From positions 1-64,000 of the forward strand of contig NZ_JAGTUF010000005.1 in the NCBI RefSeq assembly GCF_018224925.1: a stretch of DNA of 64,000 bases, written 5' to 3'. Below, piece after piece: positions 6,166-61,925 of this stretch (position 1 is the stretch's first letter; every line of letters starts with the position of its first letter). The position numbers and the translations under genes were made by a program. The notes beneath the pieces are model-generated. The model was not told where the DNA came from and searched no databases. It worked only from the letters and a program-made list of their open reading frames with translations. Source of the DNA: Magnetospirillum sulfuroxidans (GTDB taxonomy: Bacteria > Pseudomonadota > Alphaproteobacteria > Rhodospirillales > Magnetospirillaceae).

Positions 6166-6192
6166 ACCGTGCTGCACATTCACGGCATCACG
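6166..6192. repeat. dispersed palindrome, degenerate copy
   Basis: ACCGTGCTGC-acattcacg-GCATCACG matches the palindromes at 32648-32684 and 60917-60945 in arms, loop length (9) and much of the loop sequence, with one arm mismatch and an incomplete right end. It ends two bases before the stop codon of the ferritin-like gene. Confidence 0.6.
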
Positions 6193-6194
6193 AA

Positions 6195-6650
6195 TTAGGC
6201 GGCGCTACGGGCTATCCACCGTTGGATGGCGGCGACGTGCTCGGCTTCTTCCTCGACGAATTCGGCGGCCATGGCCTTGATCTCGGGATCAGAGGTCCGG
6301 TCCAACACCCCTTGGTAAAAGGCCAGACCGTTGGTTTCGGCATCCAAAGCCACACTCAGGGCCATGGCCACGTCCATTTGCGGATCGGCGGCCCAAATGG
6401 CGGCGGCTTCCGGGCTTTCCAGTTGCGGCCAGTCGTAATCGCCCGGCGCCATATCGGGCAGATCGCGGAACCCGCCGCGCTTGCGGGCTTCTTCCAGGTG
6501 CATGCGGGAATATTCGGCCATCTGGCGGAAGAACCCCGAAACCTCGGTATTGTCGAAACTGCCGGCGGCATCGGCCAATTCATCGAAGCGCAACGCCGCC
6601 TCTTGTTCAAGGCGGGCGGCGTAGACCAGGAATTCTTCGACCGATTTCAT
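6195..6650 (-). CDS. ferritin-like/rubrerythrin-type diiron protein
   Basis: A 151-aa four-helix protein. Helix motifs with likely iron ligands are visible: LEQEAALRFDELAD near residue 15, EYSRMHLEEA near 47, DAETNGLAFYQ near 105 and EFVEEEAEHVAAIQRW near 130. The two pairs of Glu/ExxH motifs are the signature of diiron ferritin-like proteins (rubrerythrin/Mn-catalase clan). No rubredoxin CxxC domain is present, so it is not a full rubrerythrin. Likely roles are peroxide reduction or iron handling in the cytoplasm. The SD GAGGAG precedes the ATG well. It is transcribed separately from mnmA, which ends 72 bases upstream on the same strand. Confidence 0.8.
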   Translation of the reverse strand: MKSVEEFLVYAARLEQEAALRFDELADAAGSFDNTEVSGFFRQMAEYSRMHLEEARKRGGFRDLPDMAPGDYDWPQLESPEAAAIWAADPQMDVAMALSVALDAETNGLAFYQGVLDRTSDPEIKAMAAEFVEEEAEHVAAIQRWIARSAA

Positions 6651-31842: not shown

Positions 31843-32586
31843 ATGCGACAGATCGCAATGGCGGTGTTAATTGGGCTGGCGGTGATTTTCCCGGCAGCGG
31901 CGCAAGAAGTGGTGGTGGCGCTGACCGATTCCACCCCCAATTTCAGCATGCGCCAGCCTGACGGCAGCACCACCGGCATCAACGTCGAACTGGCGGCCTT
32001 GCTCTGTTCGCGGATCGGGCTGCACTGCCGGTATCAGCCCATGCCGTTGGCCGCCCTGGTGGCGCAGATCCGCGATGGCCACGCCCAGATCGGCTTTGGC
32101 AATCTGATCAAGACGCCGGAACGGGCGCAAACCATGCTGTTCTCGCAGCCTTATTGGCGTTCAACCTCCGTCTTCATCGGCCGTCGTGACTTGGCCGGGA
32201 CCTCCATGACCAAGCTGGTGCAGGGCCGCAAGGTGGCGGTGCAAGAGGGGTCGCGCCAAGCCAAATGGCTGCATGATAACTTTGGCGCCGACTTCACCCC
32301 GGTCACGAAACCGACGATTTCCGAGGTAATCGCCGCCCTGAAGAACAATCACGCCGATCTGGCCCTGGCGCCGATGATGACCGTTCAGCCCTTCCTGATC
32401 ACCCCATCGGGGGCCGAATTCGGCTTTGTCTCGGACCCGATTGACGCCGGCTGGCCAGTCCATATCGTCATCGCCAAGAACCGTCCGGATTTGCAGGCGA
32501 AGATCGACGAAGCCCTGGAAGAGGTAACCCGTGACGGCAGCCTGGGCCGGATCGTGCGCGCTTATGTCCCCTTTGATATTTTTTGA
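31843..32586 (+). CDS. periplasmic solute-binding protein, family 3
   Basis: A 247-aa protein with a clear Sec signal peptide (MRQIAMAVLIGLAVIFPAAAQ) and the SBP_bac_3 fold: VALTDSTPNFSMRQPDG, GINVELAALLCSRIGLHCRYQ, then GNLIKTPERAQTMLFSQPYW and VAVQEGSRQAKWL. These proteins bind amino acids or related polar compounds for ABC transporters, or act as sensors. No permease or ATPase gene adjoins, so it is an orphan. The start at 31843 has SD GGAAAGGGGG; an earlier ATG would hide the signal peptide. Confidence 0.82.
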   Translation: MRQIAMAVLIGLAVIFPAAAQEVVVALTDSTPNFSMRQPDGSTTGINVELAALLCSRIGLHCRYQPMPLAALVAQIRDGHAQIGFGNLIKTPERAQTMLFSQPYWRSTSVFIGRRDLAGTSMTKLVQGRKVAVQEGSRQAKWLHDNFGADFTPVTKPTISEVIAALKNNHADLALAPMMTVQPFLITPSGAEFGFVSDPIDAGWPVHIVIAKNRPDLQAKIDEALEEVTRDGSLGRIVRAYVPFDIF

Positions 32587-32647
32587 CGCTTCAGCGCCCC
32601 TTGCGGGCGCGGCCAGGCCTGCGCCCGGTGAGGGAAAATGATGAAGC

Positions 32648-32684
32648 TTAGACCGTGATGCACATTTAGGGCATCACGGTCTAA
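32648..32684. repeat. dispersed palindrome, best copy
   Basis: TTAGACCGTGATGC and GCATCACGGTCTAA form a perfect 14-pair stem with a nine-base loop (acatttagg). The right arm overlaps the stop codon of the convergent methyltransferase gene. Copies occur at 60917-60945 (opposite orientation) and 6166-6192. No T run follows. The gap 32587-32680 holds no gene. Confidence 0.75.
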
Positions 32685-34006
32685 GGCCGGCGCAAGATGA
32701 TGCCGAAGCCGCATTCCCCCGAACGAACCGCCGGCTCGACCCAGGTGGCGTCGGCGGCGGCGTCGCCATAAAGCGCGGTCAGATCGGCCCACAGACGCGC
32801 CATGCTTTCACATAGCACGATGTCATCGAAGACCACGACGCGGGGCGCCAAAAGGGCATCGAAGATGCTGAAATGGGCCAATGTCGATGGATAATCATGG
32901 GCGCTATCGACAAACAACAAATCGATGGGCTGATAGTCAAAGGCTTCCAGCACCGCCCGCACGGTCGGATCAGCGGCGGCGTCGCCGACGATCCGACAAA
33001 TGCGCGGATCGAATTGCTCGAGCTTGAGAGCGGCATCGACAATATCCACCGTCACCAGCTTTTCCTGCGTCGATCCCATGCCTTGAGCCATGGCCCAAGC
33101 CGAACCGCCAAGTCGGGTGCCGATTTCAAGAACCCGGCGGCACCCTTGCTGGCGCACCAACCCGGCGAGGAAATGATAATAATCGCCGGCTTCGTATCCG
33201 TCGCACACTTGCGGCGGAATGACCTGGATTGACGAACCGACCGCCTGGGCGTCCTCGATCATCCGTCGCAGCGCCGGGGCGACGGGGCGCCGCGCCTTGC
33301 CCAAGGCCAACGCGGACAGGGATAGCGGCACGGCGATCTCGGCCGCGCCCAAACGCACGACGTAACGGCAACCATTCACCTTGACGTTGGCGATCGTTCG
33401 GCCCGAGAAAAATACATGGGGATAACGCAAGCACCACCGCCCGCCCCCCAATTGGGCCACCTGGTCAACATCATCAACACAAGCGTCAAGCACATGACCA
33501 TCTTCGCTTAAGGCGAAAGCGTCGGTGCGATTGATCGCCACCCCCGCCCATTCCGCCAAAGCCTCCAGATCAAGCCGCCATGCATGGCGGCGCTCATGGC
33601 GCAGAAACCGCGAGACATCGACCGCCATGCCGGTCCAGTGCTCCAGTTGCCGGGCAATCGTCCGGGCACGATCCGGGGTCAGCCAGGCCGCGGCGATCAG
33701 ATCGACCCGATGATCGCCAATGGCCAACGTATATTTCCGCCCATTGTCCAAGGGCGAGGAATTGTCACTGGTGGCAAAGCGGACCGTCCCGGCCCAATGG
33801 GAATAGCGGCCGGCGCCAAGCGAGCGGATTTCGGAATGAGGCTGGTGCGGGGACGGCAACGCAACCCCATCCTCCAGCACGACCAGGCGTGACCCATAGG
33901 CTTGCATGGTATCGGCCGCTTCGCCCGGAAAAGCCTCGGCCACACCTTCGGCAATCCAGCAAAAACGCTCTTCATACCTGAAATTCAGTGTCACATTCCC
34001 AGACAT
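32681..34006 (-). CDS. two-domain class I SAM-dependent methyltransferase
   Basis: A 441-aa protein. The C-terminal part (about 250-441) is a Methyltransf_24-type fold: RVLEIGTRLGGSAWAMAQGMG (motif I), VTVDIVDAALKLEQF and IDLLFVDSAHDYPSTLAHFSIFDALL. The N-terminal about 240 residues resemble no family I know and contain Trp- and His-rich segments (ARQLEHWTGMAVDVSRFLRHERRHAW). The substrate is unknown; glycan or peptide methylation is possible by analogy. The start at 34006 (MSGNVTLNFRYEE) has GGGGG upstream. It diverges from the alcohol dehydrogenase gene. Confidence 0.75.
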   Translation of the reverse strand: MSGNVTLNFRYEERFCWIAEGVAEAFPGEAADTMQAYGSRLVVLEDGVALPSPHQPHSEIRSLGAGRYSHWAGTVRFATSDNSSPLDNGRKYTLAIGDHRVDLIAAAWLTPDRARTIARQLEHWTGMAVDVSRFLRHERRHAWRLDLEALAEWAGVAINRTDAFALSEDGHVLDACVDDVDQVAQLGGGRWCLRYPHVFFSGRTIANVKVNGCRYVVRLGAAEIAVPLSLSALALGKARRPVAPALRRMIEDAQAVGSSIQVIPPQVCDGYEAGDYYHFLAGLVRQQGCRRVLEIGTRLGGSAWAMAQGMGSTQEKLVTVDIVDAALKLEQFDPRICRIVGDAAADPTVRAVLEAFDYQPIDLLFVDSAHDYPSTLAHFSIFDALLAPRVVVFDDIVLCESMARLWADLTALYGDAAADATWVEPAVRSGECGFGIILRRP

Positions 34007-60059: not shown

Positions 60060-60842
60060 ATGATCCGCAACACCTTCGCCGCAATCCTGCTTGCCTCGGC
60101 CGCCACTTTGGCCGCCCTGCCCGCCCAGGCCCAGGAAACTTTTGACGCCAAGCAGACCGATGCCGTGCGCAAGATCGTGCGCGATTATCTGATGGAACAC
60201 CCCGAAGTGATCGGCGAAGCCATCGAATCCCTGCGCGAGAAGATGCGCGCCCAGGCGGAAAGCGACGCCAAAAAGGCCATCGAATCGCGCAAGGATGAAA
60301 TCTTTAGCGACGTCAACGACCCGGTTGCCGGCAATGCCAAGGGCGACGTCGTCGTCGTCGAGTTCTTTGACTACAACTGCCCCTATTGCAAGGTGGTGCT
60401 GGACCCGATGATGGAAGCGGTCAAGGCCGACGGCAAGGTCAAGGTGGTCTTCAAGGATATGCCGATCCTGTCGGAAGATTCGTTGACCGCCGCCCGCGTC
60501 GCCCTGGCGGCCAAGAAGTTGGGCAAGTATGACGACGTCCACCGCGCCATGATGAAGTTCCGCGGCAAGCTGGACGAAAAGACCATCTTCCGTCTGGTGG
60601 GCGAGGCCGGCGCCAATGTCGACCAGATCAAAAAGGAAATGATGGCCCCCGAGATCGAAAAGCAGATCCGCAAGAACATCGAACTGGCACACGCGCTGGA
60701 CATTTCGTCCACCCCCAGCTTCGTCGTCGCCGGCGCCGACGGCAAGGCGGCGCGCACCATGTCGGGCGCCATCGAAGGCCAGGTGTTCAAGCAATTGTTC
60801 GACATCACCCGCAAGGGCGGCCGCCTGACCGGCGCCAACTGA
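60060..60842 (+). CDS. DsbA/Com1-like periplasmic thiol:disulfide oxidoreductase
   Basis: A 260-aa precursor with signal peptide (MIRNTFAAILLASAATLAALPAQA) and an N-terminal helical segment (VRKIVRDYLMEHPEVIGEAIESL) of the Com1/ScsC type. The thioredoxin domain has C107-P-Y-C110 (FFDYNCPYCK) and the cis-Pro loop SSTPSFVV. The helical extension resembles a trimerisation arm, so it may act as an isomerase rather than a simple oxidant. The start at 60060 has AGGAG upstream. A terminator follows the stop. Confidence 0.9.
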   Translation: MIRNTFAAILLASAATLAALPAQAQETFDAKQTDAVRKIVRDYLMEHPEVIGEAIESLREKMRAQAESDAKKAIESRKDEIFSDVNDPVAGNAKGDVVVVEFFDYNCPYCKVVLDPMMEAVKADGKVKVVFKDMPILSEDSLTAARVALAAKKLGKYDDVHRAMMKFRGKLDEKTIFRLVGEAGANVDQIKKEMMAPEIEKQIRKNIELAHALDISSTPSFVVAGADGKAARTMSGAIEGQVFKQLFDITRKGGRLTGAN

Positions 60843-60857: not shown

Positions 60858-60892
60858 AAAAAGGCGTCCGGTGTGAACCGGGCGCCTTTTTT
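60858..60892 (+). terminator. Rho-independent terminator after the DsbA-like gene
   Basis: AAGGCGTCCGG pairs with CCGGGCGCCTT (one mismatch/wobble) around TGTGAA, followed by a run of Ts. Confidence 0.88.
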
Positions 60893-60916
60893 CATGATCA
60901 AACCCAGGAAGTCCAA

Positions 60917-60945
60917 ACCGTGATGCCTTGAATATGCATCACGGT
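60917..60945. repeat. dispersed palindrome, second copy
   Basis: ACCGTGATGC-cttgaatat-GCATCACGGT has a ten-pair perfect stem and nine-base loop. Read on the minus strand, its loop (atattcaag) matches that of the copy at 32648-32684 at six of nine positions. It lies between the convergent DsbA-like and rpoH genes. The rest of 60893-61043 has no gene. Confidence 0.7.
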
Positions 60946-61043
60946 CTCGGCTTTTGCGTGCCCCTGGCCGGGCACCCCCTCGGGGGCTTGGCCGCTCGTT
61001 CAACCCTGGCCAAAGCAACGCGCCTGATGGAAGCTGCGTTGCG

Positions 61044-61925
61044 TTAAGCCGCCGGCAGCGCCGCCGGAACAAAACCGGCCGAGACGATGGCGCGGACCTT
61101 GTCGAAGGCCTTGACCTCGATCTGGCGGATACGTTCGCGGCTGACGCCGTGGCGTTCCCCCAATTCCTCAAGCGTCAACGGCTGGTCGCGCAGACGGCGT
61201 TCGATGAAAATTTCGCGTTCACGCTCGTTCAGGCTGTCCAGCGCCGTGGCGATCAGCTTGCGGCCCTTGGACAATTCCTCGCGCTTGCCATAGCCGATTT
61301 CTTGGTCGTCGACATCGTCGGGCAACAGCTCGATAATTTCAGTGCCGCTTTCCCCCACCGGCATGTTCAGCGACGAATCACGCCCGCCCATGCGGCGATT
61401 CATATTGATCACATCGGTTTCGGACACGTTCAATTCGGTGGCGATGGCGGCGACGTCGGCGGGGGCCAGTTCCACCTGATCCAGCAGCCGCAGCTTGGTC
61501 TTGATCTTGCGCAGATTGAAGAACAGCTTTTTTTGCGCCGCCAGGGTGCCGATCTTGACCAACGACCACGAATTGAGCACGAATTCGTTCAAGGACGCCT
61601 TGATCCACCACATGGCGTAAGTGGACAGACGGAACCCGCGTTCGGGCTCGAATTTCTTCACCGCCCGCATCAAGCCCAGATTGCCTTCGGAAATCAGGTC
61701 GGCCATGGGCAGGCCGTAATGACGGTACCCCATGGCGATCTTGGCCACCAAACGCAGATGGCTGGTGACCAATTGGTGGGCGGCTGCGGTGTCTTCGTAA
61801 TCGATCCAGCGCTTGGCCAGCATGTATTCCTGCTGCGGTTCCAAGACCGGAAAGTCACGGATTTCGCGCAGATACTTGCTTAGGCCGCTGTCGTCAGCGG
61901 AAAAGGCGGGCACAGTGGCACGCAT
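61044..61925 (-). CDS. rpoH: heat-shock sigma factor RpoH (sigma-32)
   Basis: A 293-aa sigma factor. Region 2 (LRLVAKIAMGYRHYGLPMADLISEGNLGLMRAVKKFEPERGFRLSTYAMWWIKA) is followed by the diagnostic RpoH box (QKKLFFNLRKIK). Region 4 ends LEELGERHGVSRERIRQIEVKAFDKVRA. The start at 61925 (MRATVPAFSADDSG) has SD GGGAGG; longer starts upstream would run through the promoter. A consensus sigma-70 promoter lies at 62026-62054, giving a leader of about 90-100 bases that could fold over the start. Confidence 0.95.
   Translation of the reverse strand: MRATVPAFSADDSGLSKYLREIRDFPVLEPQQEYMLAKRWIDYEDTAAAHQLVTSHLRLVAKIAMGYRHYGLPMADLISEGNLGLMRAVKKFEPERGFRLSTYAMWWIKASLNEFVLNSWSLVKIGTLAAQKKLFFNLRKIKTKLRLLDQVELAPADVAAIATELNVSETDVINMNRRMGGRDSSLNMPVGESGTEIIELLPDDVDDQEIGYGKREELSKGRKLIATALDSLNEREREIFIERRLRDQPLTLEELGERHGVSRERIRQIEVKAFDKVRAIVSAGFVPAALPAA

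Follow-up and report, generated by a model that had tools for sequence, protein, structure and literature searches.

The window analysed here, the whole stretch of 64,000 nucleotides (contig 55, positions 1-64000), belongs to the genome of Magnetospirillum sulfuroxidans. At about 32.6 kb, two convergent genes, coding for a family 3 solute-binding protein and for a protein with a methyltransferase domain, meet at a palindrome whose 14-bp arms, TTAGACCGTGATGC and GCATCACGGTCTAA, enclose a 9-base loop (Table 1). The original prediction, that the same core recurs inverted near 60.9 kb and in a degenerate third copy, agrees with what we found: the arms ACCGTGATGC/GCATCACGGT with their 9-base loop occupy 32652-32680 and 60917-60945 in opposite orientations (exact arms 32652-32661/32671-32680 and 60917-60926/60936-60945), and the third copy, at 6166-6194, has three arm mismatches. 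It had also taken the loop sequence to be common to the copies, which stands in part only: on the strand of the element, the 32.6-kb copy has the loop CCTAAATGT, the 60.9-kb copy CTTGAATAT and the 6.2-kb copy CGTGAATGT, and the spacers split the copies, by eye, into two subfamilies, with the 32.6-kb copy in subfamily 1 (spacer CTTCATCATTTT) and the 60.9-kb and 6.2-kb copies in subfamily 2 (spacer GGCTTTTGCGTGCCCC or AGTTTTTGTTTGCCCC). The predicted position just past gene ends was confirmed in all three copies, as an edge of the element coincides each time with the stop codon of a neighbouring gene (the A end at 32681 and 6195, the far end at 61044), and at the 32.6-kb copy both edges do so. 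The sigma-70-family gene beside the second copy is one that we take to be RpoH-like.

Table 1. Element copies in the window, their boundaries and the genes that flank them.
Feature	Position	Strand	Remarks
First copy (32.6 kb), module A	32648-32684	-	14-bp arms, 9-base loop
First copy, boundary tetranucleotide TTAG (minus strand)	32681-32684	-	holds TAG stop of the minus-strand gene
First copy, element body	32587-32680	-	A, spacer, B; C almost wholly lost; covariance-model match 32594-32684
First copy, far-end target, degenerate, TCAA (minus strand)	32583-32586	-	holds TGA stop of the plus-strand gene
Second copy (60.9 kb), subfamily 2	60917-61043	+	A 60917-60945, spacer, B, C hairpin at about 61015-61042; covariance-model match 60913-61010
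Second copy, left boundary CCAA	60913-60916	+	degenerate YTAR
Second copy, right boundary TTAA	61044-61047	+	holds TAA stop of the minus-strand sigma-70-family gene
Third copy (6.2 kb), degenerate, subfamily 2, module A	6166-6194	-	spacer and decayed B run to about 6120
Third copy, boundary CTAA (minus strand)	6195-6198	-	holds TAA stop of gene 6195-6650
Family 3 solute-binding protein gene (SBP_bac_3)	31858-32586	+	flanks first copy
Methyltransferase-domain gene (Methyltransf_24)	32681-33994	-	flanks first copy, convergent
DsbA/ScsC-like thioredoxin-fold protein gene	60060-60842	+	flanks second copy
Sigma-70-family factor gene	61044-61925	-	flanks second copy, convergent
Rubrerythrin/ferritin-like protein gene	6195-6650	-	flanks third copy

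Searching the whole genome (4,132,710 bases, 60 contigs) for the paired pattern with up to three mismatches revealed further copies, 17 places altogether with four of them exact, while the reversed pattern used as control gave none at the same threshold. The single 10-mer, allowed up to two mismatches, occurs 84 times in the window against 79.5 expected, and 34 of 100 shuffles scored equally high; the half-site alone is thus not over-represented there and the special feature is the paired form only. The window gave no match to Rfam 15 at the gathering score. Elsewhere in it, positions 1572-1610 hold a strong inverted repeat, AAAAACCCCTGATAGGTCA/TGACTTATCAGGGGTTTTT, which looks like a bidirectional terminator.

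Architecture of the Element

Rather than standing alone as a REP, the palindrome forms the left-end hairpin, module A, of a short, gene-less, multi-copy mosaic element of roughly 70-150 bp, and the flanks of the palindrome align mainly to one side. Module A (TTAGACCGTGATGC-9-GCATCACGGTCTAA) is followed by a T-rich spacer, by the double hairpin B (CCCTCGCCGGGCGC-hairpin-CTTGGCCGC...TCAAT...) and by the right-end hairpin C, which closes with CGCTC|TA, so that the ends of the element read YTA|GAGCG...CGCTC|TAR. B or C is incomplete in many copies, and A is also found where B is missing. The A-B units may also stand in tandem with a period of 100, as in the record set JAATGN ('Rhodospirillales bacterium bin_346', G049), where positions 159-463 of locus L184 form an array of 3.0 copies with a 100-bp period and 97% matches; by eye, L154 and L164 do likewise. 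In two loci of the record set CAIULK (L072 and L119), module C has GTGATT..AATCAC and GANTC, which makes the two end hairpins more alike.

Arms vary by genome yet remain palindromic (ACCG..CGGT, AGCG..CGCT, ATCG..CGAT). Across 32 diverse A+B sequences, 93.0% of cells were paired in the drawn structure against 84.2% after shuffling, and 81 cells had changed on both sides, against 27.9 in shuffles and at most 15 when the partner was slid along the sequence. The number of pairs with changes on both sides (11 against 9.5 shuffled) and the number of pair types (27 against 26.0) were not unusual, and of the six pairs in the second hairpin of B, one is disrupted in 13 and another in 14 of the 32 sequences. 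As the paired changes follow the subfamilies, they speak for palindromy kept at the origin of a subfamily and do not indicate the strength of selection on single copies.

Insertion Target and Empty Sites

The edges of the element are sharp. Among 127 elements with both A and B, a number that includes tandem-array units, the four positions before A are Y in 122, T in 106, A in 113 and R in 123, and from -5 outward the sequence is mixed. A script that required TA could read the far end of 50 copies; TA is preceded by C in 45 of these and by T in the other 5, and followed by R in 48. The foot of the element is therefore YTAR, with G at its first position in only 2 of 127 copies, and this differs from the foot of REP/BIME hairpins, which is the tetranucleotide GTAG or GGAG.

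A clean empty site was obtained at one locus, downstream of uppP, where M. sulfuroxidans carries 70 extra bp that are absent in four sister genomes of the genus (G005, G007, G008 and G012). The inserted copy is shortened and comprises A, the spacer and the first part of B. The filled site reads GCCG CTAA ACCGTGATGC...CGCCGCT CTAA ATCAG, while in the four sisters the downstream sequence comes directly after a single tetranucleotide, TTAG, CTAG, TTAA and CTAA, respectively, all of them YTAR. At the filled site, the uppP stop lies in the left CTAA and that of the convergent gene, on the opposite strand, in the right one; judged by the ungapped alignment rather than by gene calls of their own, the sisters would have the overlapping stops of both tail-to-tail genes in their single YTAR. 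The remaining members of the genus have a different downstream sequence or a locus that could not be read clearly. The uppP site prompted the idea of a 4-bp YTAR duplication, which we rejected: the tetranucleotides on the two sides agree in 10 of 44 copies, while shuffling gives 10.3, counted with a script that accepted only YTAR far ends and, by eye, took the wrong spot in a few rows. With identity at chance level, a duplication of four bases is not supported. TA is found at both ends of the element, where its constancy cannot be told from a sequence preference, and a duplication of TA only, which is what IS630-type elements duplicate, is compatible with the data.

Two further loci were compared. 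Downstream of recN, A stands directly at the stop codon in M. sulfuroxidans, and 10 of the 12 other members of the genus show no element in the 230 bases past the stop; the locus of G009 could not be read clearly, and G008 carries a diverged copy slightly downstream of recN (locus L199), at a position that differs from that of M. sulfuroxidans. For the 32.6-kb copy, the solute-binding protein genes of G005, G007 and G008 end in TAG, TAG and TAA, this element does not follow them and the next gene is another one, so that this locus supports an insertion yet offers no clean empty site. Just past the stop of the solute-binding protein gene of G005 (L330), a different small palindrome, TTTTAGACCAGTTTCAGCTAAAGCGGAAACTGGTCTAAA, occupies the site of the element and is perhaps a second family with the same target.

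Placement Relative to Genes

The genes around the 127 elements were called with our own codon-usage script rather than a standard annotator. Setting aside 44 elements near the edge of a locus, 5 with a gene on one side only and 3 inside a called gene (the one in L024 being a chance match to the loose pattern), 75 elements remained that lie between two called genes: 43 convergent, 29 tandem and 3 divergent, compared with 88, 280 and 112, respectively, among 480 background gaps of at least 30 bases. The bias remains when elements with intact YTAR are compared with non-genic YTAR sites, both for convergent pairs (33/58 versus 67/513, p 5e-13) and for divergent ones (3/58 versus 163/513, p 5e-6), and a stop codon lies exactly at the edge of 35 of the 58 elements (27 left, 8 right) versus 97 of the 513 sites (p 1e-10). 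These comparisons are loose, because a site offers one edge where an element offers two, and because many copies come non-independently from one genome. None of the intact-YTAR elements lies wholly inside a called gene, while 191 of 842 YTAR sites are genic. The preference for convergent pairs exceeds what the choice of target alone explains; a probable further cause is that damaging insertions were selected against, and a possible one is that the element has a use at gene ends.

Such figures would also be expected from a host device for RNA 3' ends, that is, a bidirectional terminator or an mRNA-stabilising hairpin right after the stops of convergent genes, for which the convergent excess, the stops at left and right edges, the paired changes of the hairpin and the T-rich spacer after A all speak. 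We nevertheless consider this explanation unlikely. No T run directly follows A on either strand, and a terminator scan of 32400-32900 returned no site, though its loop limit of 8 bases excludes the 9-base loop of A. The 60.9-kb copy is preceded by terminator-like hairpins with T runs at 60868-60886 that are separate from its palindrome. The element is absent from the same gene ends in sister genomes, and its sharp YTAR edges fit an insertion.

Distribution Across Genomes

Among 41 genomes (M. sulfuroxidans and 40 relatives), 12 contain the palindrome with up to two mismatches; M. sulfuroxidans has 13 such matches and several genera of the same family have more, with 24 in G013, 23 in G016 and 17 in G021. 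A scan of a sequence collection for the right arm of A together with the start of B returned at least 119 stretches, and 119 loci were taken into our scripts. The 80 matches listed bear names such as Magnetospirillum, Paramagnetospirillum and Telmatospirillum or belong to several unclassified MAGs (one of them called Actinomycetes), and 32 of these 80 come from JAATGN.

A covariance model of A+B, 101 positions long, found matches at E<=0.001 in 37 of 150 genomes from the order, including M. sulfuroxidans with 14; since 27 candidates were scored per genome, counts near 27 are lower bounds. Thirteen of the 37 positive genomes belong to the same family. The strongest matches outside it are in G123 (3.6e-20), G098 (1.7e-14), G141 (4.0e-14) and G145 (4.6e-13), followed by G134, G027 and G106 with E between 2e-9 and 5e-7, and the remaining out-of-family matches, with a best E of 1e-5 or weaker, may be due to chance. 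Plasmid records contained no match at E 1e-5.

Candidate Transposases

The original prediction had read the family as REP-like and suggested a TnpA-REP (RAYT) gene elsewhere as its mobiliser. The family is indeed dispersed, mobile, intergenic and palindromic and sits at gene ends, but a palindrome unit moved by a Y1 transposase does not account for the larger element, its sharp edges or a YTAR target with an empty site, and its ends are common to IS630 elements. Moreover, the Y1 transposase domain PF01797, which covers RAYTs and others, was detected neither in the 99.99% complete genome of M. sulfuroxidans nor in G016 (23 copies), G018 (at least 27), G042 and G045, all four of which carry the element, and this speaks against a RAYT as mobiliser. 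PF01797 was detected in 11 genomes of a set of 25 and in 8 of a set of 13, two sets that overlap (G002 equals G046 and G021 equals G048 by identical match coordinates); among the positive genomes are some, G014 for one, in which the pattern has no match. As G002 is a member of the genus of M. sulfuroxidans and G046 is the source of the M. moscoviense locus L118, the identity of these two also places M. sulfuroxidans in one genus with Magnetospirillum moscoviense. The hairpin mosaic, the genome-specific arms and the 100-bp-period tandem array of one genome do recall BIMEs; even so, we regard a REP/BIME-type element as very improbable. Least credible of all is a binding site for a dimeric regulator, nucleoid or segregation factor, for although the 29-bp span is constant and its dyad symmetry near-perfect, the arms differ between genomes by paired changes, the element reaches far past the dyad, and divergent gene pairs hold few of its copies.

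The ends of the element point instead to IS630-type transposases. Their domain, PF13358, was found in 10 of 12 genomes, and a protein like the IS630 transposase of G016 occurs in 29 of 55 genomes of the family. Thirty IS630 loci were fetched, of which 9 short or weak ones were left out and 21 were read in sense direction. By eye, the right end is GCTC|TA in 16 of these 21, with R as the next base in all 15 that were readable; left ends could be paired to right ends in 10, and YTA|GAGC was found in 9 of them, the tenth being a chance pair. Because the ends came from an inverted-repeat search, the choice of right end already dictates GAGC on the left, which leaves the Y before TA as the sole independent base. 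The elements with YTA|GAGC ends include a type in G005, with 2 mismatches in 16, and one in G071, with 0 in 16. An initial search of this kind with stricter settings had given almost nothing. These reads indicate that the element has its end bases and its target in common with local IS630 elements. The likeness goes furthest in G049, where the element end GAGCGCGATGC compares with GAGCGCGATGA at the end of an IS630 remnant and a longer match, GAGCGCGATG, joins the elements to an IS630 remnant of the same genome. In G007, an IS630-type transposase gene gives 32 matches of identical score, and the one copy whose ends were read (L293) has YTA|GAGC and GCTC|TAG; it is likely an active element of the genus. 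An attempt to define the ends of this G007 element from a run of identical columns failed, the run of 879 columns not marking them.

Several observations count against an IS630 partner. PF13358 went undetected in G021, which has 17 copies, and in G043, where at least 4 loci carry the element, and no G016-like transposase was detected in G018 and G020. Beyond GAGC(G), the ends of element and IS630 seldom agree, the 10-base match being confined to G049, and in M. sulfuroxidans the left end is mostly GACCG rather than GAGCG. An intact IS630 gene with matching ends was not found in this genome: one match is broken by two stops and the others are fragments, and a gene with an open frame of 293 aa has no GAGC end in the 90 bases past the match.

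Proposed Mechanism

Weighing these points, we propose, with a probability of about 0.8, that the family consists of new IS630-type MITEs (non-autonomous mini-transposons), which IS630-type (Tc1/mariner-like) transposases most likely move in trans; this partner we infer from ends and target. The transposase would cut at the ends of the element and join them at the TA inside YTAR, thereby duplicating TA. Because YTAR corresponds to the overlapping stops of tail-to-tail genes (TAR on either strand), an insertion leaves each gene a stop, and this double role of the target apparently allows the element to settle between genes with little harm. Selection against damage to genes and promoters would then probably leave mostly copies at convergent gene ends. 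Paired changes preserve the hairpins across subfamilies, and these hairpins may serve in end recognition or affect RNA 3' ends. One may go further and imagine convergent junctions as a safe harbour in which these hairpins have come to act as 3'-end signals, one for each gene, and to keep the two transcripts apart, the element having become a domesticated punctuation element of Magnetospirillum-like bacteria; this extension we offer as rather speculative.

Comparison with Known Systems

Among the papers listed by searches of the open-licence PMC literature, no title or abstract opening describes this element family, but several known repeats resemble it. A comparable case is RUP of Streptococcus pneumoniae, an intergenic repeat of 107 bp that sits at TA and for which an IS630 transposase (IS630-Spn1) has been proposed as the mover, because their ends are alike (PMC2229807). 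Compared by description only, both are intergenic repeats at TA with IS630-like ends, and the Magnetospirillum element is distinguished by two end hairpins and an internal double hairpin, short common ends and edges at stop codons. The enterobacterial ERIC (IRU, RU-1) repeat, 127 bp, is similar in its shortness and TA termini, but it occurs in other organisms, and the passages of PMC2229807 on it name no IS630 partner. CIR of Caulobacter and Brucella is, like our element, an alphaproteobacterial intergenic repeat with TA termini; it is described with a GANTC motif (PMC2229807), whereas the A+B consensus of the element has none.

Insertion sequences of the IS630/ISY100 type duplicate a TA target at insertion (PMC2170065), and IS630 prefers CTAG, according to a title cited there. 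They share the TA target with the element, but code for a transposase, which the element does not. REP/BIME with RAYT are likewise palindromic, intergenic and mosaic; the element differs from them by its foot, its YTAR insertion target and a genome in which no PF01797 gene was found. Together, these comparisons offer an account of a common repeat of magnetotactic and related bacteria, in which a testable transposon model replaces that of REP and RAYT, and a target that coincides with overlapping stops suggests a simple explanation of how IS630-type elements may multiply while doing little harm.
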